A stretch of 64,000 nt of DNA from Ruminococcus sp. Lineage in GTDB: Bacteria > Bacillota > Clostridia > Oscillospirales > Ruminococcaceae. This document shows, one piece after another, positions 11,973 through 25,151 of the stretch; within the stretch, counting starts at the first letter, position 1; each line of letters begins with the position of its first letter. The notes under the pieces are model-generated. The model searched no databases. It had not been told where the DNA came from and saw only the letters and a list, made by a program, of their open reading frames with translations. Made by a program: the position numbers and the translations under genes. The stretch spans positions 30,772 through 94,771 of the forward strand of contig JAFXSC010000027.1 of the NCBI GenBank assembly GCA_017525915.1. Direction: 5' to 3'.

Positions 11973-14900
11973 ATGTTTGGGAAAATGACAAACAGGTTAA
12001 TCAGTTTTCTGACTGCTGCAGTTCTGACAACATCAAACGTGCTGCAGATTGCGCCTGTTGTTGCAGTAGATGACGGTCCGGATCTGACATATCAGAGTAT
12101 TGAGCTGTACCCGAACGGCGAAGAAGCGGAGCAGGTCGTCACACTGGACGGCTTGATGCCGGAGCGCGCCGAGGCTGAGGCCATTGATGTATCAGAGGAG
12201 TATGACGGCGTTGCTGCGTATGATATAACGATTACGGACGACGGCGAGGAATACCAGCCGGGTGAGAGATATCCGATTCTCGTAGAGATCGTGGATCCGG
12301 TGATCCCTGAGAGCAACAGCATTGAGTTATGGCATATTCTTGATGACGGCGAAAGAGAACAGATCTTTGACTTTACCGCAGAGGAAGGTAAGGTCAGATT
12401 CTTTGCGACCGGTTTTTCAGTGTATCAGATCGTGGATGCTATTAAGCCTCTCAATATTATCTATGATGTAGAGGCACTTTCCGGGGAATCTACGCATGGT
12501 ATTTATGAGATTGAAACGATTGGAACAAGCACCGATTTCGTATATAATGTTGTGACTCCGTCATTTGACCCCCTTACAGGAACAGCGACGAAGATGAACA
12601 GCCTTCAGGCTTTCAAGGATAATCTTGCGGATGGATTTTATCTTAGCACCAAGCGCTATGGATATTATGCAATCAATGGTCAAGAGAATAATTCGCGAGA
12701 TGCTAATAGAACTGGTATTGCTCTTACTCGCATATATAAAACTAATAATATTCACAACAATTTAACTAATGCGTATGAAGCGGGCGCAAAGAAGTTTTAT
12801 TTCGAGGAAGTAGATGCTAATAATAGTTACTACAAAATTTATACAATGGCTGATGACGGGACTACGAGAAAGTATGTTAGCCATAATGGAACAACTAACA
12901 ATGTGTTTTTGACAAATGATGAAAATAATTCGGATTCAACTCTCACATATGAAACGGTATGGAAAGTTGGGTATAATAGTGATTATTTTTATTTTCAAGA
13001 CATTTATGGGAGTTTTAATGACAAAGATTGCTTTTTGAGTGAAACAGCGAGAGATAATAATACATCGCGTGGATTGACCATATATAATAACGGGTATACC
13101 GATGGCGGTGCACAGTTTTATCTTTGGACTTATTCTCCGCCGGAATTAACCGAAGACCCGTATCACTTAAATGGGCAAACCTATGGGTTGATTAATAATA
13201 ATGGCACCAAGGGCTATGCTTTAATGGCAGGTAAGCCGTCAACAAATCAGGCTACCGACCTTGGCATTGTTGAAGTCAATAGAGGAACAGGCAGCTATAC
13301 CTCTCAGTATGGTATTTCAGGCTGGACATTTGAATGGATTCCCGGAACATTGACATATTATGTCAGCGCAAAGGCTGATAATGGTGCAGATCAGAAATAC
13401 CTGAAACTCAATGCTGCCGGTATATCCTTGGTTGATGCTTCGGAGGCATCTGCCATAATGGTAACACCAGACAGAACAACAGGAAGAATAAAGCTTACGG
13501 TTCCTTCTATGAATGCTTCCATTATAAGAAGTGGCAGTGCCCGCTTCATGAAAGACAAAAATACCGTTACCACAGAAACAAACTATACAAATGAGCTAAG
13601 ACTTTTCGATCTGGTTGAAATTCCAACAACCGCAGATGCACTTGCATTGGATGGAAAGACTGACATTTTGGTTTATAATAATCAGTATGCGGTTCTTTCG
13701 ACTGGAAACGGTTCTACTTTGAACAGGCAGGCTGTAACCGTAAAATCCGAAACAGAATATGTATATTTCAATGATCTTACAGAATGGACGTTTACAAATG
13801 TTGACACCAACCGTTATATCATTTCTACAGAAATAGATGGTGTTACGAAGTATCTGAAAATCGTAAACGGAAACGGCAAAGTATTCCTGTCAGATACAGA
13901 GTTTATTTTAACTGTGCTTTCTGATGATAATAAGATTAAAATATCCAACACAACAGATAAGAGATGGTTGGGACACGGCAATTCTGCTTTTCAGTCTAAA
14001 AATGAGAGCGATGCGGCATCTTTGAATCTTGCTTCTACAACACCTGCCCCAACCTCAGATCCGCTCGGACTTGACGGCAAGACATATGGTGTGATTGCTT
14101 GTGATGCGGAAAACAACAAGGGTATTGTTTTGAATTCCAAGACACAGCTGACTTATGATGCTGCTAACAAGAAATATATCAACACCACAGAGATGCTTTC
14201 AGGCTGGACGTTCCATTGGGAAGGGGAAAACAAGTATACACTGACGAATTCCGAAGGAAAGTATCTTAATAGTACTTTTGGTGTGAGTGACACTGCACAG
14301 GTGTTTGCTGTTATCAAAGATGGCGATGCCATTACTATGTATAATCCGGAGAATTCAAAAGTTCTTTCGTGGAATGAAAGCTTATTAAAATTTGATTTTC
14401 AATCACCCAATACAACAATGCCGCATTACTTCCATCTGGTGGATCTTTCCAATCAGCCAACAGATCCCTACGGTCTCGACGGCAGATCTTTTGGCCTTAT
14501 GTATTATCAGAACGGCGTTTACGGTTATACAATGCAGGCTAAAGCAAATTCGGACAGTTCGGCTTTGCAAAGCTATTCGACAGAAACGAGAGTCAATCCT
14601 CTGACACATAACTATGTTAACTTCGTTACCGAGGAGGATGACGCAGTTTCATTCTGGAAATTCAAACATGTTGCGGATGATTATTATCAGCTTTCAGCTA
14701 ATACTGATAACGGTGTAAAATACCTGAATATCACTTCAGCCGGAAAACTGCAACTCTCCGACACTCCGCAGAGCATAAGAGTGAATCCCGGCTCGGGCAG
14801 CTATGCGGGCATGATTCAGCTGTATGCAGAAGGAAAATATGTTGAATTCACGACGAGTACTTTTTCCGCCAAAAACTTTGACATCAATAACAAGGGACTG

Positions 14901-17900
14901 TTCTGGCTGAATCTGATCGAAGATGTGTCCATGCTGATCCCGGATGACTTTGTGGTTTACACTGCCAAGAAGGTCGGAGTATCTGAGCGCGAAGAAGGCA
15001 ATCCGAATAAGTATAAGGTTCGCAATAACGAGCCAGGAGAAACCCCGGTGCATAATGAAATCATTATTTACACCCGTGTGTGGGATGCAACGCAGAACAG
15101 ATACCGCTTCTATGCCATCGACCATGACGGCAGCCTTGTAGAGTGCTATGAGCGCGGCGATAATATCATGTGGATCGGCAGCCAGGTTAATACGCTGAAA
15201 TGGACGTTTATTGAGTATCTGTATGATGACGGCACCACGACCAATTACTATGATCTGTATAATCCGTATTCGGGCAAGTATATCGTTCCGCAGATCAAGG
15301 ACGGGCAGATCCTTGTCACGGAAGATCAGCCACGCGGTATAAATATGCCCGGCCGACGCGAAGGCGAATACTATACGCAGTTCATCAAATGGGATGATGC
15401 AAACTATGCTTTTGCAGCCGTTAGAGCAAACAATACTGACACTGCGATAGAGTCCTGCAAGAAAAAACAAGGTGATACGTTCTATTTTGCACATCTGGAT
15501 ACCTCTGCTGATCTGAACGAGGTTGAAACTGTTGATAATTCAAAGTATGGCATTACCATGAAGATGGTTGACTTTAACGGTGCAACGATCAATACGGACG
15601 AAGCGGGTAATAAACTTGGTTGTGATACAACAGTAGAGCAGCATACAGTAATGGGACGCTCGCACTGGTCACGAGAAGATGCCTTAAAAGCCGACTCCGG
15701 TTTGTTGTCAACCAATTTGGAGGGTGAATATCCCACCGCATTGCTGACTAATAATTCTTTAGGTGTATTGTTTGACAAAGCGGATACACATGTTGTCAAT
15801 CATCTGTTTATCCAGAGTACATTGGAGCAGAGCGGCTATTTTGAATATGACAGCTGCCAGAATTTTGCGACGCTGAAAGACGCGGACGATCACGATTTTG
15901 GAAATCCCTCTAAAAACAGTGCCGGTGAATATCTGTTCCTGGTGGAGGAAAACGGCTATCAGGTTGTCAAGGCATATGCTGATCCGTCAACGGCACCCGC
16001 CGGCGCAAAACAGATCTACGATTTCAGAGTCACAAAGGAACTCGCAACTTATGATTCGGGCGGTGACAAGCCCTCTCTGAAACACTGTCAGTTCCTGCCG
16101 TATGACGGTATTGATGCAGGTTATTACGCAACTACAAACGGCTGGAATCTGTATGATGCATTGCAGGAGCCGTTGAGTGATTCCGATCCCAGAAAGTACG
16201 AGCGACTCCACAAGATTGATACTGTTGACAACTATTTTGGCATGGAGCTGGAGGCAAGCTTTATCCAGACACCTAACGGAAAAGATAACTGGAACCATCC
16301 GATCATCTTTGAGTTTACCGGAGACGATGATTTCTGGCTTTATGTTGACGGTGAGCTTGTCATTGACCTTGGCGGTGTTCACTCTGCTCTTGAAGGTACT
16401 GTCAATTTTGCTACCGGAGAAGTTGTTGTGAATGGAGTACCTAATACATTAAGGGACATTTTCTATAAAAACTATCGCGGATATACCCCTGAGGAAGCCG
16501 TTGCAAATATAAAAAGGTTAAAAGGCAAAAACAATCTTACGCTTCAGGATATTGAAGCAGATCCGGAATTAAAGGCAATATACGACAGGTACATGGAAAG
16601 ACATCATACTCCTGAAGAAGCACAGCAATACGTTGAGAAACTTTTTAAAGAGACAGATGACGGCCACTATGTCTTTAAGGATTACACGAAGCACACCATG
16701 AAGATCTTTTACATGGAGCGTGGTGCTGGTGCTTCCAATTTGCATATGCGCTTTAATATCAGTTCTGTCAATCCCGGCAGCGTAATGCTGACCAAGCAGG
16801 TAGAAACTAAGGATGAAAATGGAAACGAAATTCAGACTGGTATAGACGGAGAACTCGATGAAAACCTACTTCAATTTCCGTATCAGATCTGGTTTGCAAC
16901 TAAGGATGTGCAGGAAGCAGCAGTTGCGGCGTACAAAACTACGCATGAAATTACAGCTGAGCTTGAAGAGCCGCAGATCATTGAGGCATTAAATGAATAT
17001 GCAGCTTTAAATCCGGATGCAATGCTTCTCACGCCTGATACAGATAATTTCAGTATCGGCTACCAGCAATCTGCCAGACCCATCCGTTATGAAGAGAGCT
17101 TCACTGACAATCGAAATGATACTTTCCATAAGGTCTTTTTCCTGTATCCCGGCATGAGCGCGGACATTCGTTTCCCGGAAGACACGCTGTATTATAAGAT
17201 CATTGAGTGCGGCATCGACTCAAATGTTTACGATATTACGGATATTGAAGGTGGTGACGGCAACACCAACGTTAACGGTGCGACAGAACTGCCGTGGACA
17301 AAGGTCAGCGACCGTCCGAATGTTGTTTATAAGAATACAGTTGCAAAGAATGCGTTCAAGCCTCTGCGCATTACAAAAATACTGTTTGATGATCAGGGAA
17401 ATAAAGTGAGCTATGAGGATGACTCTGAACGCTATACGTTCCGTCTGTATCTGACCGACGGTATTTCTGATAATCTGAAGCTCACCAATATGTACAAATA
17501 CCACGTATTGGATCCGAGTGGAAACTATTGTACATGGGATTCCAACACTGGGGATTTTGTATCAACGGGAAAATCGGATCTATCTCAGCTGCAGGATAAA
17601 CTCGACCTTATTTCGTTTGAAACATCTATCAACGGTGCGATCTCCAATATTCCTCCCGAGTATACGGTTGAGGTTCCTAATCTGCCGCTTCACTCCTATT
17701 TCATGGTGGAGGAGCGCGCTGATGAGACACCAAGGGGATATAAGTATCTGCGATTTAGTGATCACGGTACGGGTAATAATCTATATCCTGCTTCCTTTAA
17801 TAAACAGGATACCGTTATAGTGAATGGAAAGACGCATACTATCAAAGAAGAGGATAGACAATGTGCAGGACAGATACCTGAGGATATTAAGGATAATGAT

Positions 17901-20126
17901 ACCGGGGATACAATCTTAACTATCAGCCCATGGGTGGATATTGATAACAAACAAGGCTGGGAACTATGTGCCGAAAAGGTGTGGTCTGACAAGGACTTTG
18001 TCAAGGGTCATGACAACATCTATACCGCTGTCTACCTGAAGAATTCGGACGGCACCGAAACGTTAAAACGGGATTCCATCAGAGAACTCAGAAGCCCTGA
18101 TACAGGAGTATGGTATTATTACGACAAACTTGATGAAGGGCATACATTCTCCGATTATGCCATTTATGAGGTCAAACTGAGCGAGGCACCGACGTCAGTT
18201 ACAGCGGTCGAAGATGCGTTGCGCGGAACAGTGTACGAAGTAGCTGTTTCAGACACCACCAATGTGACAAAGAACGAGGACGGCCCACTGTTTAATGTCG
18301 GCTATATGAAAAACTGGGAGATACAAGCCCAGAAGGATTGGACGATAAACAGCGAGAGTTCGACATACACCGCCGTCTATCTGAAAAACACAGACGGCAG
18401 CGAAACGCTGCTGGAGGATTCCATCAGAAAGCTCGATGCCCCGAATACCGAAGTATCTTATACCTTTGAGACTCTTAAGCGGGGTCATACTTTTTCTGAT
18501 TATGCCGTTTATGAGGTGGATCTGAATCAATATCCGACATCGGTGCAGGGAACAGAGCAAATCGTGACGGTTTCAGAGCCCGGTCTTGTGACAAAAAAAC
18601 CTGCGGATGGTTCGTTCAGTTATGTAAAGCCTTCGGAGAACGGCAGCTACCGCGTGAGCTATGATAAAGGTACGCCGACTGGCGGCAAAAATAATGTACG
18701 CACAGATTCGATCACCAATACACGTCAGGGCGGTCTCGTTATTCATCTGTATGAAATGAATGAAATGGGTGAACCAACAACGACTGCTTTGAAGGGCGGC
18801 GTTTTTGAACTGAAAAAGGCGGGTGACGGTACACTGCTTGGCGAATATGTTTCAGACAAAGACGGTCTTGTGACAGTCATGTATGACTTTGATCTGAATC
18901 AAGAGTATATACTTACTGAAACGTCAGCTCCTAAGGGCTATCTGGGTGTACCAAATACCATCACCATTCGCATAAATACTGATGAAGAAGGAACAACTGC
19001 AACGGGCATTACAGTCAGTGGAAACAGCACAGAATGGGCGACAGGAAATTTAAAATCATTGACAGAAGAGATTGTCGCAGAGGTGGATGTCTACAACCCG
19101 AAGTTCGAGGTCAAGTTCAAGAAGGTAGACACTCAGGGGCAGCCGCTGGAAGGCGCGACCTTCTCGATCTATCGCTGCGTCAAAGCTATGCAGAACGGCG
19201 TTGATATTGAACGAATGGACTATTATCCTTTGGAAGGATATAAGGATTTTAAGTCTGCCGGGACAACCGGAATCATTTTTGACATCTGCGAGGCAAATAA
19301 CAATTTGCTGCTTCCCGGAAAGTATTATCTATACGAGGAAGAAGCTCCGACGAATTATATCGGTCTGGAGAAGCCTATCAAATTTGAGATCACCGATATT
19401 GGCGAAGTTCTCATATACGAAATTGCGGCGAATGGAACGGAGACACCGGTAACTTCCAATCAATATTTATCCAAGGAAGGTTATTCCTATCTGTTTACCA
19501 TTCCTAATCAGTTTTCCAGACGTGATTACTATTTCGACATCGAAAAGATCATTTTCGTGGACAAGAATGTTCATGACCGTGATACCGAGCAGAAGTTTAT
19601 TTTCAAGGTTGACAGATTTGATGAGGGTACTGATAATTTCAGCGACAGTAATATCAAAGATTCATTCTATGTCACGCTCAACTGCGATAACGATATTACG
19701 CAGACCTATGTGTACCCGTTCAGCGAGGAAACCGTTGACGGAAAGACGTTCAACAACGATAAAACAATTACCTGTCGAGACGGATATAGCTTCCCGGCCG
19801 CAATCTGGAACGGGAGAAAAACGGTTCATGTTTCAAGCGATGGCGTATACCGTGTTTCGGAGGTTTCGGGCTGGTCGTCAACAGATTATGATTTCTGGCC
19901 GGGTTCAAATGTGTATAAGGGGTATGGTTCTCCTGTCCGGCAGGGACAGTCCGACGGATACGTTATCTTTGATACGTCCGCAGTTAAGGCGGATCAGTTC
20001 AAAAACGATACCGCTACGATAAACGGCAATGTTGAATACCGCCCGACCGCAAGCTTCACGAACAGCGAGACCGAATATGCATATCTCAGCTCACAGGCTT
20101 ATGCAGACAACAAGATCAACCGATAA
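11973..20126 (+). CDS. Giant secreted adhesin (fibro-slime, Cna-B and SpaA domains)
   Basis: Secreted protein of 2717 residues, the largest gene here. It has a signal peptide (about 1-31), then a region with at least four repeats of about 135 residues introduced by DPYHLNGQTYG, LALDGKTD, DPLGLDGKTYG and DPYGLDGRSFG (about 390, 556, 695 and 830). A fibro-slime/PA14-like domain lies at about 1410-1600 (FTGDDDFWLYVDGELVIDLG and FYMERGAGASNLHMRFNI), interrupted by a helical insert near 1490-1565. Two Cna-B-like units follow (about 1990 and 2110, both with YTAVYLKNxDGxETL and GHTFSDYAxYEV). Two SpaA-like units come next (about 2255 and 2375; KGGVFELKKAGDG, LEGATFSIYRC). A final domain ends NKINR. 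There is no LPXTG-like signal or C-terminal helix, which is unusual for such an adhesin. It may be linked through a pilin or the PPKTG protein. AAAGG precedes ATG 11973. Confidence 0.87.
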   Translation: MFGKMTNRLISFLTAAVLTTSNVLQIAPVVAVDDGPDLTYQSIELYPNGEEAEQVVTLDGLMPERAEAEAIDVSEEYDGVAAYDITITDDGEEYQPGERYPILVEIVDPVIPESNSIELWHILDDGEREQIFDFTAEEGKVRFFATGFSVYQIVDAIKPLNIIYDVEALSGESTHGIYEIETIGTSTDFVYNVVTPSFDPLTGTATKMNSLQAFKDNLADGFYLSTKRYGYYAINGQENNSRDANRTGIALTRIYKTNNIHNNLTNAYEAGAKKFYFEEVDANNSYYKIYTMADDGTTRKYVSHNGTTNNVFLTNDENNSDSTLTYETVWKVGYNSDYFYFQDIYGSFNDKDCFLSETARDNNTSRGLTIYNNGYTDGGAQFYLWTYSPPELTEDPYHLNGQTYGLINNNGTKGYALMAGKPSTNQATDLGIVEVNRGTGSYTSQYGISGWTFEWIPGTLTYYVSAKADNGADQKYLKLNAAGISLVDASEASAIMVTPDRTTGRIKLTVPSMNASIIRSGSARFMKDKNTVTTETNYTNELRLFDLVEIPTTADALALDGKTDILVYNNQYAVLSTGNGSTLNRQAVTVKSETEYVYFNDLTEWTFTNVDTNRYIISTEIDGVTKYLKIVNGNGKVFLSDTEFILTVLSDDNKIKISNTTDKRWLGHGNSAFQSKNESDAASLNLASTTPAPTSDPLGLDGKTYGVIACDAENNKGIVLNSKTQLTYDAANKKYINTTEMLSGWTFHWEGENKYTLTNSEGKYLNSTFGVSDTAQVFAVIKDGDAITMYNPENSKVLSWNESLLKFDFQSPNTTMPHYFHLVDLSNQPTDPYGLDGRSFGLMYYQNGVYGYTMQAKANSDSSALQSYSTETRVNPLTHNYVNFVTEEDDAVSFWKFKHVADDYYQLSANTDNGVKYLNITSAGKLQLSDTPQSIRVNPGSGSYAGMIQLYAEGKYVEFTTSTFSAKNFDINNKGLFWLNLIEDVSMLIPDDFVVYTAKKVGVSEREEGNPNKYKVRNNEPGETPVHNEIIIYTRVWDATQNRYRFYAIDHDGSLVECYERGDNIMWIGSQVNTLKWTFIEYLYDDGTTTNYYDLYNPYSGKYIVPQIKDGQILVTEDQPRGINMPGRREGEYYTQFIKWDDANYAFAAVRANNTDTAIESCKKKQGDTFYFAHLDTSADLNEVETVDNSKYGITMKMVDFNGATINTDEAGNKLGCDTTVEQHTVMGRSHWSREDALKADSGLLSTNLEGEYPTALLTNNSLGVLFDKADTHVVNHLFIQSTLEQSGYFEYDSCQNFATLKDADDHDFGNPSKNSAGEYLFLVEENGYQVVKAYADPSTAPAGAKQIYDFRVTKELATYDSGGDKPSLKHCQFLPYDGIDAGYYATTNGWNLYDALQEPLSDSDPRKYERLHKIDTVDNYFGMELEASFIQTPNGKDNWNHPIIFEFTGDDDFWLYVDGELVIDLGGVHSALEGTVNFATGEVVVNGVPNTLRDIFYKNYRGYTPEEAVANIKRLKGKNNLTLQDIEADPELKAIYDRYMERHHTPEEAQQYVEKLFKETDDGHYVFKDYTKHTMKIFYMERGAGASNLHMRFNISSVNPGSVMLTKQVETKDENGNEIQTGIDGELDENLLQFPYQIWFATKDVQEAAVAAYKTTHEITAELEEPQIIEALNEYAALNPDAMLLTPDTDNFSIGYQQSARPIRYEESFTDNRNDTFHKVFFLYPGMSADIRFPEDTLYYKIIECGIDSNVYDITDIEGGDGNTNVNGATELPWTKVSDRPNVVYKNTVAKNAFKPLRITKILFDDQGNKVSYEDDSERYTFRLYLTDGISDNLKLTNMYKYHVLDPSGNYCTWDSNTGDFVSTGKSDLSQLQDKLDLISFETSINGAISNIPPEYTVEVPNLPLHSYFMVEERADETPRGYKYLRFSDHGTGNNLYPASFNKQDTVIVNGKTHTIKEEDRQCAGQIPEDIKDNDTGDTILTISPWVDIDNKQGWELCAEKVWSDKDFVKGHDNIYTAVYLKNSDGTETLKRDSIRELRSPDTGVWYYYDKLDEGHTFSDYAIYEVKLSEAPTSVTAVEDALRGTVYEVAVSDTTNVTKNEDGPLFNVGYMKNWEIQAQKDWTINSESSTYTAVYLKNTDGSETLLEDSIRKLDAPNTEVSYTFETLKRGHTFSDYAVYEVDLNQYPTSVQGTEQIVTVSEPGLVTKKPADGSFSYVKPSENGSYRVSYDKGTPTGGKNNVRTDSITNTRQGGLVIHLYEMNEMGEPTTTALKGGVFELKKAGDGTLLGEYVSDKDGLVTVMYDFDLNQEYILTETSAPKGYLGVPNTITIRINTDEEGTTATGITVSGNSTEWATGNLKSLTEEIVAEVDVYNPKFEVKFKKVDTQGQPLEGATFSIYRCVKAMQNGVDIERMDYYPLEGYKDFKSAGTTGIIFDICEANNNLLLPGKYYLYEEEAPTNYIGLEKPIKFEITDIGEVLIYEIAANGTETPVTSNQYLSKEGYSYLFTIPNQFSRRDYYFDIEKIIFVDKNVHDRDTEQKFIFKVDRFDEGTDNFSDSNIKDSFYVTLNCDNDITQTYVYPFSEETVDGKTFNNDKTITCRDGYSFPAAIWNGRKTVHVSSDGVYRVSEVSGWSSTDYDFWPGSNVYKGYGSPVRQGQSDGYVIFDTSAVKADQFKNDTATINGNVEYRPTASFTNSETEYAYLSSQAYADNKINR

Positions 20127-21005: not shown

Positions 21006-21013
21006 GTCACAAA
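21006..21013 (+). repeat. 8 bp target-site duplication, left copy
   Basis: GTCACAAA directly before the GTAAGG end of the mobile element. The identical direct copy lies at 24988-24995. Confidence 0.85.
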
Positions 21014-21093
21014 GTAAGGGTAAAATGTTCCGCGTCTTCCCATCCGGTGTCAAAAATGGTATAATGGAATCCTAAGCAAGTCATTGGACTTGT
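21014..21093 (+). repeat. Terminal inverted repeat, left, with built-in promoter
   Basis: Begins GTAAGGGTAAAATG and matches the reverse complement of 24908-24987 at 73 of 80 positions. It contains TGGTATAAT (extended -10) reading inward. Confidence 0.85.
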
Positions 21094-21123
21094 GAAAAAT
21101 CATTCAGCCGAACAATATGGAGC

Positions 21124-22158
21124 TTACAGCACCACCTGATTCTTTCCGTTGTTTTTTCCAAAGTACAGCTTTTCATCCGCCTTTGAGATCCAGATATCAC
21201 TCGACAAGCTCTCATTATAGCTACAGACACCGATTGTCACAGTAATTCTGAGGTCACTGCCCTCATAGCGGAATACCTCGTCAGCGATCTTTTTTCGGAG
21301 AGCTTCAAGCCGCTCAGAACCGCAAGACTTTCTTTCGCTGAGAATGATAAACTCCTCACCGCCCCATCGGCAGACAATACAGTCCTTGCAGGTCTCCTGT
21401 GCAAGCACTGCAATCTGATGCAGGATATAGTCACCACAGTTGTGTCCGTAGGTGTCATTGACCTTCTTGAAGTCATCTATATCAAGCAGCGCGATCCAAC
21501 GATCTACCGGACTCTTGGTCTCCATCTGATTCAACGCAGCAAGAAGATAATGACGGTTATACAGACCCGTGAGGTTATCGACCATTGCCATACGCTCCAG
21601 CTTTTCCTCGTTACGGATTGCTATATTGTGGAAAAGATATAGGAAAAGTATCACGATACTGAACGTAGCGACTGAATTGAAGATGATGTGAATATCAATG
21701 GCACTTCTCGGAACATTATAGATCGGGTCGTGAAATCTTGCATAAACATACACACCGATATAACAAGCGACATGAACAGCGATCATAGGTACAAAGGGCA
21801 GTTCCTTTTTCAGCACCCGCTTGTGGAGATAGCCGAAATAGCTGATGCAGGTAATCATTCCGACGGCATAAAGCTGAAAAGCCGGCTCTGTACCCATGCA
21901 AACCACACCTGTTATCATAAACCCGAGAATGACTGCGCAAATTATCACGGTTGAGGTCAGATAATGCTTTTTCAGGATGAGATAGATATTGGTCGTGTTA
22001 ATGACCAGCTTCACATAAATAACATATCTGATGATGGGCATATCATAGATGATTCCCATGCTTAAGAAAAATACATCTGTGAAGAGCAGAAACCCGCCGA
22101 AGAACAGCGTCAGATTTCGTATCAAAGCTGTGTTTTTATCCGATTCATTCATATGCAT
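21124..22158 (-). CDS. Membrane diguanylate cyclase (GGDEF)
   Basis: Makes cyclic-di-GMP from two GTP. About 344 residues. The first 185 hold six or so hydrophobic helices forming a membrane sensor without a family I can name. The GGDEF domain follows (about 190-344) with MVDNLTGLYNRHYL, DIDDFKKVNDTYGH and the intact active-site loop RWGGEEFIIL. The RxxD inhibition site expected five residues before GGEEF is not there. GGAG at 22163-22166 could serve ATG 22158 or ATG 22152; GTG 22161 is also in frame. The EAL gene ends 12 bases upstream, so synthesis and breakdown of the messenger are encoded in one operon, within the mobile element. The stop lies 30 bases from the left terminal repeat. Confidence 0.9.
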   Translation of the reverse strand: MHMNESDKNTALIRNLTLFFGGFLLFTDVFFLSMGIIYDMPIIRYVIYVKLVINTTNIYLILKKHYLTSTVIICAVILGFMITGVVCMGTEPAFQLYAVGMITCISYFGYLHKRVLKKELPFVPMIAVHVACYIGVYVYARFHDPIYNVPRSAIDIHIIFNSVATFSIVILFLYLFHNIAIRNEEKLERMAMVDNLTGLYNRHYLLAALNQMETKSPVDRWIALLDIDDFKKVNDTYGHNCGDYILHQIAVLAQETCKDCIVCRWGGEEFIILSERKSCGSERLEALRKKIADEVFRYEGSDLRITVTIGVCSYNESLSSDIWISKADEKLYFGKNNGKNQVVL

Positions 22159-22170
22159 CACGCTCCGATC

Positions 22171-23709
22171 TCAAACAGACTGTATCGTATAGAGGTACTT
22201 TCCGTCCTCCAATTTTGAAATCCGGATATTTTTTAGTTTGTAGCCGCTGCCGCCGCGAACCTTGAACGACTGCTGAATATAGTCTTCCACTCGCTTTTTG
22301 AGAGTATCAAGGTCGAAAAACGCCAGATATCTATCCCGATCCTCCGGGTGAACTTCTGTAGCGGCGAATTCAGTGATTCCTTTCCTCAGTGAAACCGTGC
22401 CATAGATTTTCGCAAATCCGGCATTGGAATAGATCTGTACGGCACCGTCCTTATCCGGAGTGATCTCTGTGACAAGATCATAGGTTGCATACAGCGACTG
22501 GCTGTATTTGAGAACGAGGTAATCGCTTCGTTCTGAGCTGATGATATGAACGGTTGATGCAATGAGATGCCTGTCTCCGGAGGATGCGATCAGTTTGGTT
22601 GTAAATGTATATACAACATCTCTTATGATGTTATCTATTTTCTGAATGCCGCCGGGATAAATGGTTCTCTCGATCTGACGCATAAATCGGTCATAGTATG
22701 CATATCGTTCGTCATTGACATCGTTTTCAATCTGCTCTATGGAGTTGTAGCCGAGCTTCTTTATCTCCTCTGAATAGGCGGCATTCACATAAGGATATGA
22801 TATCTTGCCATGATTGTACTCGATTAAAGCTATCGGAGCCGTTCCACAAACATAGTCCGTATTGTTTTCTGACAGATCGAGTGTTGTCATAAGCGGATCA
22901 CCGCTTAAAAAATCAATTTCTCCTGCTTTGTTCCAGAATTCACGTTCACTTCTTGTTTCTGAGGAGTGGGTTTCCAGATAGGCTAATAAGTCCGCCTCAC
23001 ACATCGGCTTTGCAAAATAATACCCCTGTAATATCTCGCAGCCAATGTCTCTGAGAAATGCAAGCTGTTCTTCGGTCTCCACGCCCTCTGACAGCGTGTG
23101 AATTCCGATAGCTTTGGACATATTGACAATAGAGGAGATGATTTTTCTGGAACGGACATCGAACTTCCTAAGCAGCGACATATCGATTTTCAGGACGTCG
23201 AACGGATAATCGCGCAGCACGTTCAAAGACGAGTACCCGCTTCCGAAATCATCCATCCAGATACTGAAGCCTGCATTATGGAACTGTTCAAACAGTCTTT
23301 GCGTGTTCTCAGGATTTGTGAGCATTGTGCTTTCCGTGATTTCAAAATGAATTGCGCTGGCCGGAACATGGTAGCGATTCAGGATATCTGTGATCTCACG
23401 GAACATATCTGTCTCCACGAAATCAAGTCTTGACAGGTTGATAGAAAATATCATGTCCTTGCAGTCATTTTGCTGATAGTAGCGACAGACATTCTCTACC
23501 ATTGCCAGATCGAGCTTGTGTATCAGCTTGTGTTCTTCCAGTGAGTTTATAAACTCACCGGGCGGTATCAGTCCTCGCTCCGGATCGTCCCATCGTGCCA
23601 AAGCCTCGGCACCAAAGACCTTGCCGGAGATGGTACGGGTCAACGGTTGGAAGAATGCCTTAATATACCCGTTGTTCAGGGCTTCTTCAAATCTGTTTAC
23701 AAAATCCAT
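22171..23709 (-). CDS. Cyclic-di-GMP phosphodiesterase (EAL) with C-terminal PAS-like region
   Basis: Cleaves cyclic-di-GMP. 512 residues with the EAL domain first (about 1-245). Visible motifs are AEALARW, INLSRLDF, FEITEST, MDDFGSGYSSL, LKIDMSLL, SEGVET and LQGYYFAKP, so all metal and catalytic positions look intact. Residues of about 280-512 form a PAS-like sensor pair; the order EAL then PAS is reversed from the usual. There is no membrane helix. GAGGTGAT precedes ATG 23709. It stands between the exonuclease remnant and the GGDEF gene and is likely read from the promoter at 24464-24492. Confidence 0.9.
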   Translation of the reverse strand: MDFVNRFEEALNNGYIKAFFQPLTRTISGKVFGAEALARWDDPERGLIPPGEFINSLEEHKLIHKLDLAMVENVCRYYQQNDCKDMIFSINLSRLDFVETDMFREITDILNRYHVPASAIHFEITESTMLTNPENTQRLFEQFHNAGFSIWMDDFGSGYSSLNVLRDYPFDVLKIDMSLLRKFDVRSRKIISSIVNMSKAIGIHTLSEGVETEEQLAFLRDIGCEILQGYYFAKPMCEADLLAYLETHSSETRSEREFWNKAGEIDFLSGDPLMTTLDLSENNTDYVCGTAPIALIEYNHGKISYPYVNAAYSEEIKKLGYNSIEQIENDVNDERYAYYDRFMRQIERTIYPGGIQKIDNIIRDVVYTFTTKLIASSGDRHLIASTVHIISSERSDYLVLKYSQSLYATYDLVTEITPDKDGAVQIYSNAGFAKIYGTVSLRKGITEFAATEVHPEDRDRYLAFFDLDTLKKRVEDYIQQSFKVRGGSGYKLKNIRISKLEDGKYLYTIQSV

Positions 23710-23736
23710 TCTATATCACCTCTAGTCGAGTTATCA

Positions 23737-24277
23737 TCATGTAAGTCTGTATGTCCTGATAAAATCCTTTTCATTTGCGCCGTCAGCAATGTATCTGAGC
23801 AGTATCTCTGCACAGGCTCTACTATCGCTGTCTGCCTTGTGGTGATCCAGAGGGATCCCGTAGTAATCGCATAAGATATTCAGGTTGTGCTTCATCCCCG
23901 GCAGGAGCTTGCGCCCGGCTTGGACGGTACAGAGATAGCGCACTGACTTCTTCCATGTGATATTGTAGGCGGTTAAGCATGCTTTCAAAACAGAAAGATC
24001 GAATACCGCATTGTGAGCAACAAGAACGCCGGACTCCATCCATGGTTTTATAGTTTCCCACAGTTCAGAAAATGTCGGAGCATCTGCCACAGTGAAGTCA
24101 TCTATTCCTGTCAGCTCTATATTAAAGCTATCGAACGGCACTTCTGGGTTTACATAGGAAAAGAGACTATCCGTAATTACACCGTCAGATATTTTTGTAA
24201 TTCCTATTGCGCTCATGCGATTGTTATAGCGGTTGGGTGTTTCTACATCAAATACTATGTAGGTGTGAAGTGTGCAT
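23737..24277 (-). pseudogene. Frameshifted DnaQ-type 3'-5' exonuclease
   Basis: DEDD-family exonuclease. The open part from ATG 24216 has AHNAVFDLSVL (motif II) and HHKADSDSRACAEIL (motif III). The catalytic first motif lies upstream in the same frame as YIVFDVETPN but has no start codon. A good start, ATG 24277 with AAAGGAGG 7 bases before it, is in another frame and stops after nine codons. Removing seven bases just after that ATG (CACACTT, next to a second CACAC) gives M-H-T-Y-I-V-F-D-V-E-T, an ideal N-terminus. This looks like a 7 bp duplication that broke the gene. A product starting at 24216 would lack the DxE residues and be inactive. A sequencing error cannot be excluded. Confidence 0.72.
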
Positions 24278-24307
24278 TGACGCGCCTCCTTTCATTCCAA
24301 CAGCAAC

Positions 24308-24409
24308 TCATGAACATAAATCATCGCAGTGTTTATCTAAGTGAAACACGTTGAGAATGGTAGCTTTCTCGGCAATGTTCGTGCCGACAACTGTGAATTT
24401 ATCGTTCAT
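24308..24409 (-). pseudogene. HsdM N-terminus-like fragment (33 codons)
   Basis: Short ORF with AAGGAG about 9 bases before ATG 24409. The first 19 residues, MNDKFTVVGTNIAEKATIL, look like the start of type I restriction-modification methylase subunits (HsdM, where NKFTVVGTNIAEKATxIW is typical). The remaining 14 residues do not, and the ORF then stops. It is the first gene after the operon promoter, so the fragment may now serve only as a leader providing translation signals. It suggests the cargo region was joined from pieces. Confidence 0.6.
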
Positions 24410-24463
24410 AGGGTATCTACTCCTTGCGATTGCTGATAAGATATGCAATAAGAATATATAGTT

Positions 24464-24492
24464 ATTATATCATATAATTTAAGAAGTGTCAA
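24464..24492 (-). promoter_or_regulatory. Consensus promoter of the element's cyclic-di-GMP operon
   Basis: On the minus strand TTGACA (24492-24487), 17-base spacer, TATAAT (24469-24464). Exact sigma-A consensus, 55 bases before the HsdM-like fragment. Confidence 0.92.
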
Positions 24493-24545
24493 TAAAATTA
24501 ATGTGTAAAATGACATATGTAGTGAAAGGCAATTGTACAAAAAAA

Positions 24546-24577
24546 GCCAGCAGAGCGCGTGGCTCTGCTGGCTTTTG
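24546..24577. terminator. Bidirectional terminator inside the element
   Basis: GCCAGCAGAGC (24546-24556) pairs perfectly with GCTCTGCTGGC (24562-24572). It is followed by TTTTG on the plus strand and by six T on the minus strand. It separates the truncated tnpA ORF from the cyclic-di-GMP operon promoter. Confidence 0.85.
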
Positions 24578-24578
24578 T

Positions 24579-24600
24579 GTAAGCGTAAAGTAAGCGTAAA
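24579..24600 (+). repeat. Tandem 11 bp repeat resembling the element end
   Basis: GTAAGCGTAAA occurs twice in a row (24579-24589 and 24590-24600). It differs by one base from GTAAGGGTAAA at the left end of the element, so it may mark an old inner end of an IS66 copy. Confidence 0.55.
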
Positions 24601-24622
24601 CCGCCAACATAAGCTACCAAAG

Positions 24623-24653
24623 AAACAGACTCACCTTGAAGGTGGGGCTGTTT
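24623..24653 (-). terminator. Hairpin after the truncated tnpA ORF
   Basis: AAACAG (24623-24628) pairs with CTGTTT (24648-24653), with inner CACCTT and AAGGTG. On the minus strand it follows the stop at 24659 and runs into TTTCTTT. Confidence 0.5.
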
Positions 24654-24658
24654 GCATA

Positions 24659-24829
24659 TCAAGTATTGAATGGCAAGCTGATCGTCCCGGCAGGCTGTGA
24701 GAACAATTCTGTCAGATACTGCTCTGTATCCACACCGTTTGCCTGCTGTGCTTCAAGCTGTTCTGCCCATTCCCGCATGCGTACATCCTGCTTTACTGCC
24801 GTGATCGCTGTTGTGGTTTCCGATTGCAT
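24659..24829 (-). CDS. Truncated IS66 accessory protein (TnpA-like), 56 residues
   Basis: Small ORF with GAGGAGG 8 bases before ATG 24829. TTAITAVKQDVRMREWAEQL resembles the N-terminus of IS66-family accessory proteins (TnpA), where VRxxxWAxxI precedes a helix-turn-helix. The expected continuation, a CxxNGI...YYYW-like DNA-binding part, is absent; the product ends SQPAGTISLPFNT. It is transcribed from the promoter in the terminal repeat (TGGTATAAT near 24939). It is probably a remnant of an internally deleted transposase operon. It could also have a new role; nothing shows one. Confidence 0.6.
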   Translation of the reverse strand: MQSETTTAITAVKQDVRMREWAEQLEAQQANGVDTEQYLTELFSQPAGTISLPFNT

Positions 24830-24907
24830 ACCGATTCCTCCTCGTGTCAGTCTAATTTACTCCAATTTAGTCCATTGGACTGATTTAGACTGTCTCAAAT
24901 GGTCTAA

Positions 24908-24987
24908 AGAAGTCCAACGGCTTTCTTAGGATTCCATTATACCATTTTTGACACCGGAAGGGAAGACGCGGATCATTTTACTCTTAC
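24908..24987 (-). repeat. Terminal inverted repeat, right, with promoter for tnpA-like ORF
   Basis: Read on the minus strand it begins GTAAGAGTAAAATG and matches the left repeat at 73 of 80 positions. TGGTATAAT inside it points toward the ORF ending at 24659. Confidence 0.85.
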
Positions 24988-24995
24988 GTCACAAA
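24988..24995 (+). repeat. 8 bp target-site duplication, right copy
   Basis: GTCACAAA directly after the ...CTCTTAC end of the element; identical to 21006-21013. Confidence 0.85.
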
Positions 24996-25016: not shown

Positions 25017-25151
25017 CTAACTGAAATCAATATTCGGAGTTCCGGGAACGTCTCCGGCATCTCCGCCGTTACTCAGTGTTGACGTCGTGATGACATCCTC
25101 TGCATCGAACCGGATGATCTCCAGCTCCGGAATAGTGTATTTTTCTTTCAT
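25017..25151 (-). CDS. Small acidic peptide with ITTS motif (44 residues)
   Basis: Uncharacterised peptide beginning MKEKYTIPELEIIRFDAED followed by VITTS and a Gly/Pro/Asp tail. GGAGG lies 8 bases before ATG 25151. From memory, short clostridial proteins with the pattern KPExExIxFxxEDVITTS are common near surface-protein genes, but their function is unknown to me. It follows the 25170-27242 surface gene by 18 bases, so the two are one transcript. There is no signal peptide. The mobile element inserted 21 bases after its stop codon. Confidence 0.7.
   Translation of the reverse strand: MKEKYTIPELEIIRFDAEDVITTSTLSNGGDAGDVPGTPNIDFS

Follow-up and report, generated by a model that had tools for sequence, protein, structure and literature searches.

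A probable mobile insertion cassette of IS66 origin with a cyclic-di-GMP gene pair in Ruminococcus

In contig JAFXSC010000027.1 of a Ruminococcus sp. (assembly GCA_017525915.1), genes for the turnover of cyclic-di-GMP lie between inverted ends of the type found in insertion sequences (ISs) of the IS66 family, and this arrangement raises the question of whether the genes and the ends moved together as one unit. The analyzed stretch, here called the window, comprises 64,000 nucleotides of this contig. The original prediction, made from the letters of the window, described an IS66-like transposable unit at 21006-24995. Its ends were placed rightly, and we refined the span: the unit proper occupies window positions 21014-24987 (3,974 bp), and the direct repeats are located outside it. 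We consider it probable that this unit is a non-autonomous IS66 derivative carrying passenger genes, namely a mobile insertion cassette (MIC), which was moved as one and is probably the remnant of two IS66 copies.

Ends of the unit and their relation to IS66

Both outer ends of the unit open with GTAAG. The inverted ends are 92% complementary over 78 nt, and when 80 bases are compared, 73 agree and seven differ, in accordance with the original prediction. The octamer GTCACAAA directly abuts both outer ends and is identical at all eight positions (Table 1). Given the base composition of the window, the octamers at a specified pair of positions would agree perfectly with a probability of about 1.6e-5; GTCACAAA is found four times on the plus strand of the 64-kb window, two of these being the repeats of the unit, and not on the minus strand. 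For IS66, 8-bp repeats and ends of 20-30 bp opening with GTAAGCG are described in the part of the source available (PMC11946415), and 8-bp repeats are also given for two IS66 members (PMC3281130, likewise in part). Note that the 8-bp rule as used here rests on this literature and on the present unit, not on related copies in other genomes. IS-type inverted ends enclose genes not concerned with transposition, without a transposase, and the target duplication encloses the whole unit.

The right end is an internally deleted IS66, in which the tnpA-proximal end (A end) and the start of tnpA are fused to the end of tnpC and the distal end (D end). Leftward from position 24987, a segment of 253 bp matches the beginning of an IS66 in a Clostridia metagenome-assembled genome (MAG) (JAGKVC010000214.1, locus L094) at 93% identity, and a following segment of 88 bp (24745 to 24658) matches the end of its tnpC at 82%. 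An overlap of 11 bp, CAGGCAAACGG, is common to both matches, which indicates a loss of about 2.1 kb between near-repeats. The open reading frames (ORFs) of L094 were read as TnpA, TnpB and TnpC, and its TnpA (59.8 bits; cut-off 28) and TnpC (378 bits; cut-off 180) pass the NCBIfam cut-offs, which relates the remnant to a bona fide IS66 and bears out the predicted family. A more distant IS66 with Pfam TnpB_IS66 and DDE_Tnp_IS66 domains is present in another genome (G008). The inner limit of the remnant, GTAAGCGTAAACCGCC at 24590, resembles the distal end of the relatives. As for transposase genes, only a 56-amino-acid (aa) tnpA/tnpC fusion was found within the unit and no tnpB was found, which agrees with the prediction that no intact transposase is present; lacking the tnpA, tnpB and tnpC set, the unit is therefore an IS66 derivative and not an IS66. 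The 8-bp duplication corresponds to the borders of the 3,974-bp unit rather than to those of the remnant by itself, because the remnant's own flanks agree at only four of eight positions and form no target duplication; an assignment of the repeat to the remnant was accordingly rejected.

We compared the 80-base ends of the unit with six outside ends. The left end is identical at 78 of 80 bases to the A end of locus L030 (G044:C31), and the right end is identical at 78 of 80 bases to the A end of locus L090 from a sheep omasum MAG. Each end is closer to the end from another genome than to its partner (73/80), and therefore two different IS66 copies are indicated as the source; by this comparison, copies of different subtype are the likeliest origin. 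The right copy is recognizable over 398 bp with both of its ends, and the left copy over only about 80 bp: the end of the GGDEF gene directly follows the left end on its right side, and no further IS66 sequence was matched between them. The unit thereby seems to resemble a composite transposon with outward-facing tnpA-side ends and worn-down IS66 copies. We rejected a standard composite transposon, in which the IS copies would be intact, because both copies are defective.

The following history would account for the unit. Two IS66 copies of slightly different subtype would have come to flank an exonuclease gene and an EAL-GGDEF operon, with the tnpA-proximal ends of both copies facing outward. 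The left copy would have been worn down to its outer 80 bp, and the right copy cut to 398 bp by loss of the segment between short near-repeats of tnpA and tnpC. The two outer A ends may then have been recognized by an IS66 transposase acting in trans, which moved the 3.97-kb unit to its present place, the insertion producing the 8-bp duplication GTCACAAA. The EAL-GGDEF pair has its own promoter-like site, and its products are predicted to break down and synthesize cyclic-di-GMP, respectively.

Table 1. Features of the unit and its borders (window coordinates)
Feature	Position	Strand	Remarks
Left copy of the target-site duplication, GTCACAAA	21006-21013		Directly outside the left end
Left terminal repeat	21014-21091	+	Copy of the A end of IS66
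GGDEF protein, 345 aa, predicted diguanylate cyclase	21124-22161	-	GGEEF motif; Pfam GGDEF, E = 1.4e-31
EAL protein, 512 aa, predicted cyclic-di-GMP phosphodiesterase	22171-23709	-	Pfam EAL, E = 1.2e-67
DnaQ-like 3'-5' exonuclease, probable pseudogene	23737-24261	-	Pfam RNase_T, E = 5.1e-20; listed ORF 23737-24216
Promoter-like site TTGACA-17-TATAAT	24464-24492	-	TG before the second hexamer; 12/12 consensus bases; reads into the three passengers
Terminator-like hairpin flanked by A and T runs	24546-24572		Seen by eye, between the IS66 remnant and the passenger promoter
Internally deleted IS66, 398 bp, D end GTAAGCGTAAACCGCC	24590-24987	-	A end plus start of tnpA, joined to end of tnpC plus D end
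Fused ORF, 56 aa (IS66 remnant)	24659-24829	-	TnpA N-terminus and TnpC C-terminus
Right terminal repeat	24910-24987	-	A end of IS66
Right copy of the target-site duplication, GTCACAAA	24988-24995		Directly outside the right end

Passenger genes and the age of the insertion

The cyclase and the phosphodiesterase that the original prediction placed inside the unit were recovered by Pfam (Table 1), and both reading frames are open. The N-terminal half of the GGDEF protein is hydrophobic by eye, and the C-terminal half of the EAL protein has no Pfam match. Alignments with PDB chains and the columns of a five-protein alignment showed the predicted catalytic motifs, namely GGEEF in the cyclase and the EAL, N, E, DD, K, E and Q positions in the phosphodiesterase, which we take to be catalytic residues. 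The motifs of the EAL protein align with those of RocR (PDB chain) and are invariant in all five aligned EAL proteins.

A third passenger, which the original prediction did not name, is the exonuclease gene, apparently broken at its start. Its relatives in loci L011 and L012 begin MRYIVFDVETPNR, and the window sequence shares their reading from YIVFDVETPN onward, that is, upstream of the listed ORF. No ATG, GTG or TTG was found in frame above the region of homology before a stop, and the ORF from the next ATG is without the DVE motif. The exonuclease is probably dead, judging from its reading frame, and a rare start codon is possible.

Leftward from the promoter-like site the gene order is exonuclease, EAL, GGDEF. 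This site is the only one with 12/12 consensus bases among the 14 found (shuffled sequences: mean 9.7, sd 3.3). The hairpin at 24546-24572 is not among the seven terminator-like sites from the computed site search. The whole window gave no Rfam match at gathering thresholds, and hence no curated cyclic-di-GMP riboswitch there.

The original prediction also took the insertion to be recent. The repeat is indeed perfect, and the exonuclease and the IS66 part have decayed; a recent insertion is neither supported nor refuted, as a perfect 8-bp repeat is compatible with a wide range of ages. In three-way comparisons, the window branch had a nonsynonymous divergence (dN) of about 0.06 and a synonymous divergence (dS) of about 0.95 for the GGDEF gene (a rough estimate, with pairwise dS up to 2.2), and a dN of about 0.05 with saturated dS for the EAL gene. 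These rough values reflect selection on a long branch, not time since insertion.

Occurrence elsewhere and alternative explanations

We searched for the A end in a genus sample of 125 genomes (one per species), in a family sample of 396 genomes, which contains only few genomes of the host's genus, and in genome_contigs. It was found in seven of the 125 genomes (at most two mismatches; host included), with a slightly wider pattern in six of the 396 (at most three mismatches; host and G008 included), and with the exact pattern in 23 stretches of genome_contigs. The Ruminococcus search proposed by the original prediction was thus positive, and relatives with tnpA, tnpB and tnpC exist in other genomes. 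Among 123 loci longer than 3 kb, 59 have the A end. Inverted pairs of A ends less than 12 kb apart occur at two places, this unit (L001, L112) and a contig of another genome, G087:C104 (L032, L092). The second unit (L032 2631-6500) encodes a sigma-70-type factor, a zf-HC2 protein and an HD protein (Pfam), located between ORFs read by eye as pieces of tnpA and tnpC, and one of its A ends directly abuts a D end. That two A ends enclose different passengers at a second place counts in favor of the cassette interpretation.

Two side observations concern another contig of the same genome (G087:C107). At positions 850 and 3734 of locus L031, two tnpA-side IS66 ends in the same orientation, 2.9 kb apart and with identical flanking sequence, enclose an 812-codon repeat-rich ORF, and the arrangement looks like a duplication. 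At 850-900 of this locus, as at 24546-24590 of the window, an IS66 end adjoins a terminator-like hairpin (by eye), a possible target preference.

The passengers have their nearest whole EAL relatives found in G431 (72%) and G510 (74%), which belong to two other genera of the family (22 of the 396 genomes matched at 1e-60, host included, from the best three or fewer candidates per genome). In both genomes the GGDEF gene comes after the EAL gene, the exonuclease is not adjoining, and no A end was found at three or fewer mismatches. The GGDEF relative of G510 (L125 8026-9177) has the stretch RWGGEEFIILS duplicated. Within the host's genus, 18 of the 125 genomes gave GGDEF matches at 1e-30 (host included; best 16 or fewer candidates per genome), and apart from two pieces in G043 the best relatives are only 37-40% identical. 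In this MAG of another species, with 7% contamination, 293 bp (L028 1-293) match the end of the exonuclease and the start of the EAL gene at 98%, and 127 bp (L029 1-127) match the end of the EAL gene and the start of the GGDEF gene at 100%; both pieces stand at the first bases of two contigs and end inside genes, one of them beside a resolvase gene. Of 16 matches between the remainder of one of these contigs and the host (best 40 of 71 candidates; several are repeated sequence), 14 are at 70-85% and the others at 69% and 97%, the two longest having identities of 80% (about 1.25 kb) and 70% (about 0.8 kb). The pieces therefore look transferred. They speak for a joint movement of the three genes, but not for one brought about by this element. 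As the pieces end inside genes at contig edges of a contaminated MAG and are without IS66 ends, G043 was rejected as a second cassette. Plasmids and phages gave only short exonuclease or EAL similarity (four and two records, respectively), and viral contigs no close relatives of the EAL and GGDEF proteins.

The unit lies between convergent predicted genes. Upstream is a 2,717-codon ORF (11973-20126, plus strand), surface-protein-like by eye, and a small ORF of about 43 codons (MKEKYTIPELEIIRFDAEDV..., 25018-25151, minus strand), read by eye, adjoins the insertion site; short matches to the DNA of the latter occur in several genomes of the genus.

Several results weigh against movement of the genes as one IS66-bounded unit. 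A second copy was found neither in the host (all 28 candidates scored) nor, as a whole, among the 125 genomes (best two candidates per genome). The empty site that the original prediction proposed to seek in relatives was not found as a joined site by either flank (best two to three candidates per genome), and no flank match was both long and close: the longest on the left was 67% over 723 query bases (G009), and on the right the best matches reached 78% across about 114 bases in G015 and 66% across about 400 in G053. The G043 pieces have no IS66 ends, only two units with paired A ends were seen among the 59 end-bearing loci, and the unit of G087:C104 has no 8-bp repeat (GAATGATT / GAAGAATA). 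None of four IS66 relatives with ordered A and D ends has a perfect repeat (3, 6, 1 and 2 of 8 positions), and therefore the 8-bp rule was not reproduced in copies of this clade, which speaks against easy generalization. The missing empty site, the missing second copy and the four imperfect relatives would also suit a coincidence, in which an old chromosomal operon acquired the ends and the GTCACAAA repeats through independent IS66 insertions and deletions and the genes were never mobile as a unit. We regard this as highly improbable: besides the low chance of a perfect match at these very places, the GGDEF relatives in the genus are distant, the G043 pieces aside, and the nearest whole EAL relatives found belong to other genera.

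A rather unlikely alternative is capture by a single IS66, by the transporter-IS route, in which the far side of the passengers received an A end by transposition or gene conversion and no second complete IS66 ever flanked them. The left copy amounts to about 80 bp with no other IS66 sequence matched before the GGDEF gene, and in G087:C104 the passengers are located inside one IS66, flanked by its pieces of tnpA and tnpC, and an A end directly adjoins the D end. However, the left end is unlike a fresh copy of the unit's own right end, each being closer to ends of other genomes, and the passengers of the window are outside the D end at 24590, as in a composite transposon. With the derivation from two copies retained as the preferred explanation, we also lean towards a compatible one in which the unit moved once and is now stranded, its signaling genes being an ordinary acquired pair among many. 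The present mobility implied by the original prediction found no support: at up to two or three mismatches, the A end occurs in the host assembly only at the two ends of the unit, and the full IS66 with the same ends, which was to be looked for, was not found. The only IS66 TnpC match of the host (L079 61-2371, G000:C21; neighboring ORFs read by eye as TnpA and TnpB) is accompanied by a diverged A end with little beyond the tip in common with the ends of the unit, and its tnpC has an altered C-terminus adjoining an inverted-repeat stretch at the contig edge. Moreover, the host genome (3.09 Mb) has 38 GGDEF matches, 37 above the Pfam cut-off, and the physiological effect of one extra pair may be small. 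On the other side, the assembly consists of 67 contigs, and repeated IS copies may be missing from it.

Whether IS66 in Ruminococcus and its relatives repeatedly yields transposase-free cassettes with two A ends and regulatory modules (here the EAL-GGDEF pair; in G087:C104 the extracytoplasmic function (ECF)-like sigma factor, an anti-sigma-type zinc-finger protein and the HD protein), spreading signaling between species through IS66 acting in trans, is a wider proposal that we hold to be doubtful. If such cassettes recur, they would explain in a simple way some of the uneven occurrence of cyclic-di-GMP and sigma-factor modules in gut Clostridia.

Relation to known mobile elements

The unit has clearly defined borders and shows a second-messenger gene pair that has been captured by ends of IS66, and it raises the idea that two tnpA-side ends can serve as substrate for the IS66 transposase. 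IS derivatives that lack a transposase and are mobilized in trans are described as MICs and miniature inverted-repeat transposable elements, and ISs with passengers as transporter ISs, in the available parts of PMC3129680 and PMC3281130; cyclic-di-GMP genes on mobile elements include the EAL gene of Tn21 and genes on Tn501 and on integrative conjugative elements (PMC10333796, available in part). Passenger-carrying transposase-free cassettes and cyclic-di-GMP genes on transposons are already known, and what is unusual here is the EAL-GGDEF passenger together with two tnpA-side ends. An IS66 cassette with cyclic-di-GMP genes was not met in the open-license full-text literature, as covered by titles and abstract openings (longer lists in part).

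In MICs, IS ends surround passenger genes and a target duplication is formed, and the unit likewise has IS ends enclosing passengers and a target duplication. It also shares with them the lack of its own transposase and a presumed mobilization in trans by a related IS (PMC3129680, in the part available). Unlike known MICs, the unit is derived from IS66, has both outer ends from the same (tnpA) side, carries the cyclic-di-GMP pair and the exonuclease, and still has the deleted IS66 nested at its right. With the IS66 family it shares the GTAAG ends, the 8-bp duplication and the tnpA and tnpC remnants, whereas it is without tnpB or a functional transposase, consists mostly of passenger in its 3.97 kb, and has inverted ends of 78-80 bp. 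As in composite transposons, its outer ends would come from two copies, here of two IS66 subtypes, and the right D end faces inward; in contrast to them, the left copy is reduced to 80 bp and neither copy is functional. Tn21 and Tn501 are transposons of the Tn3 type that bring their own machinery, whereas the unit is a small IS66 derivative in which a cyclase and a phosphodiesterase occur together. What it has in common with them and with integrative conjugative elements is the presence of genes for cyclic-di-GMP turnover on a mobile element (PMC10333796, in the part available).

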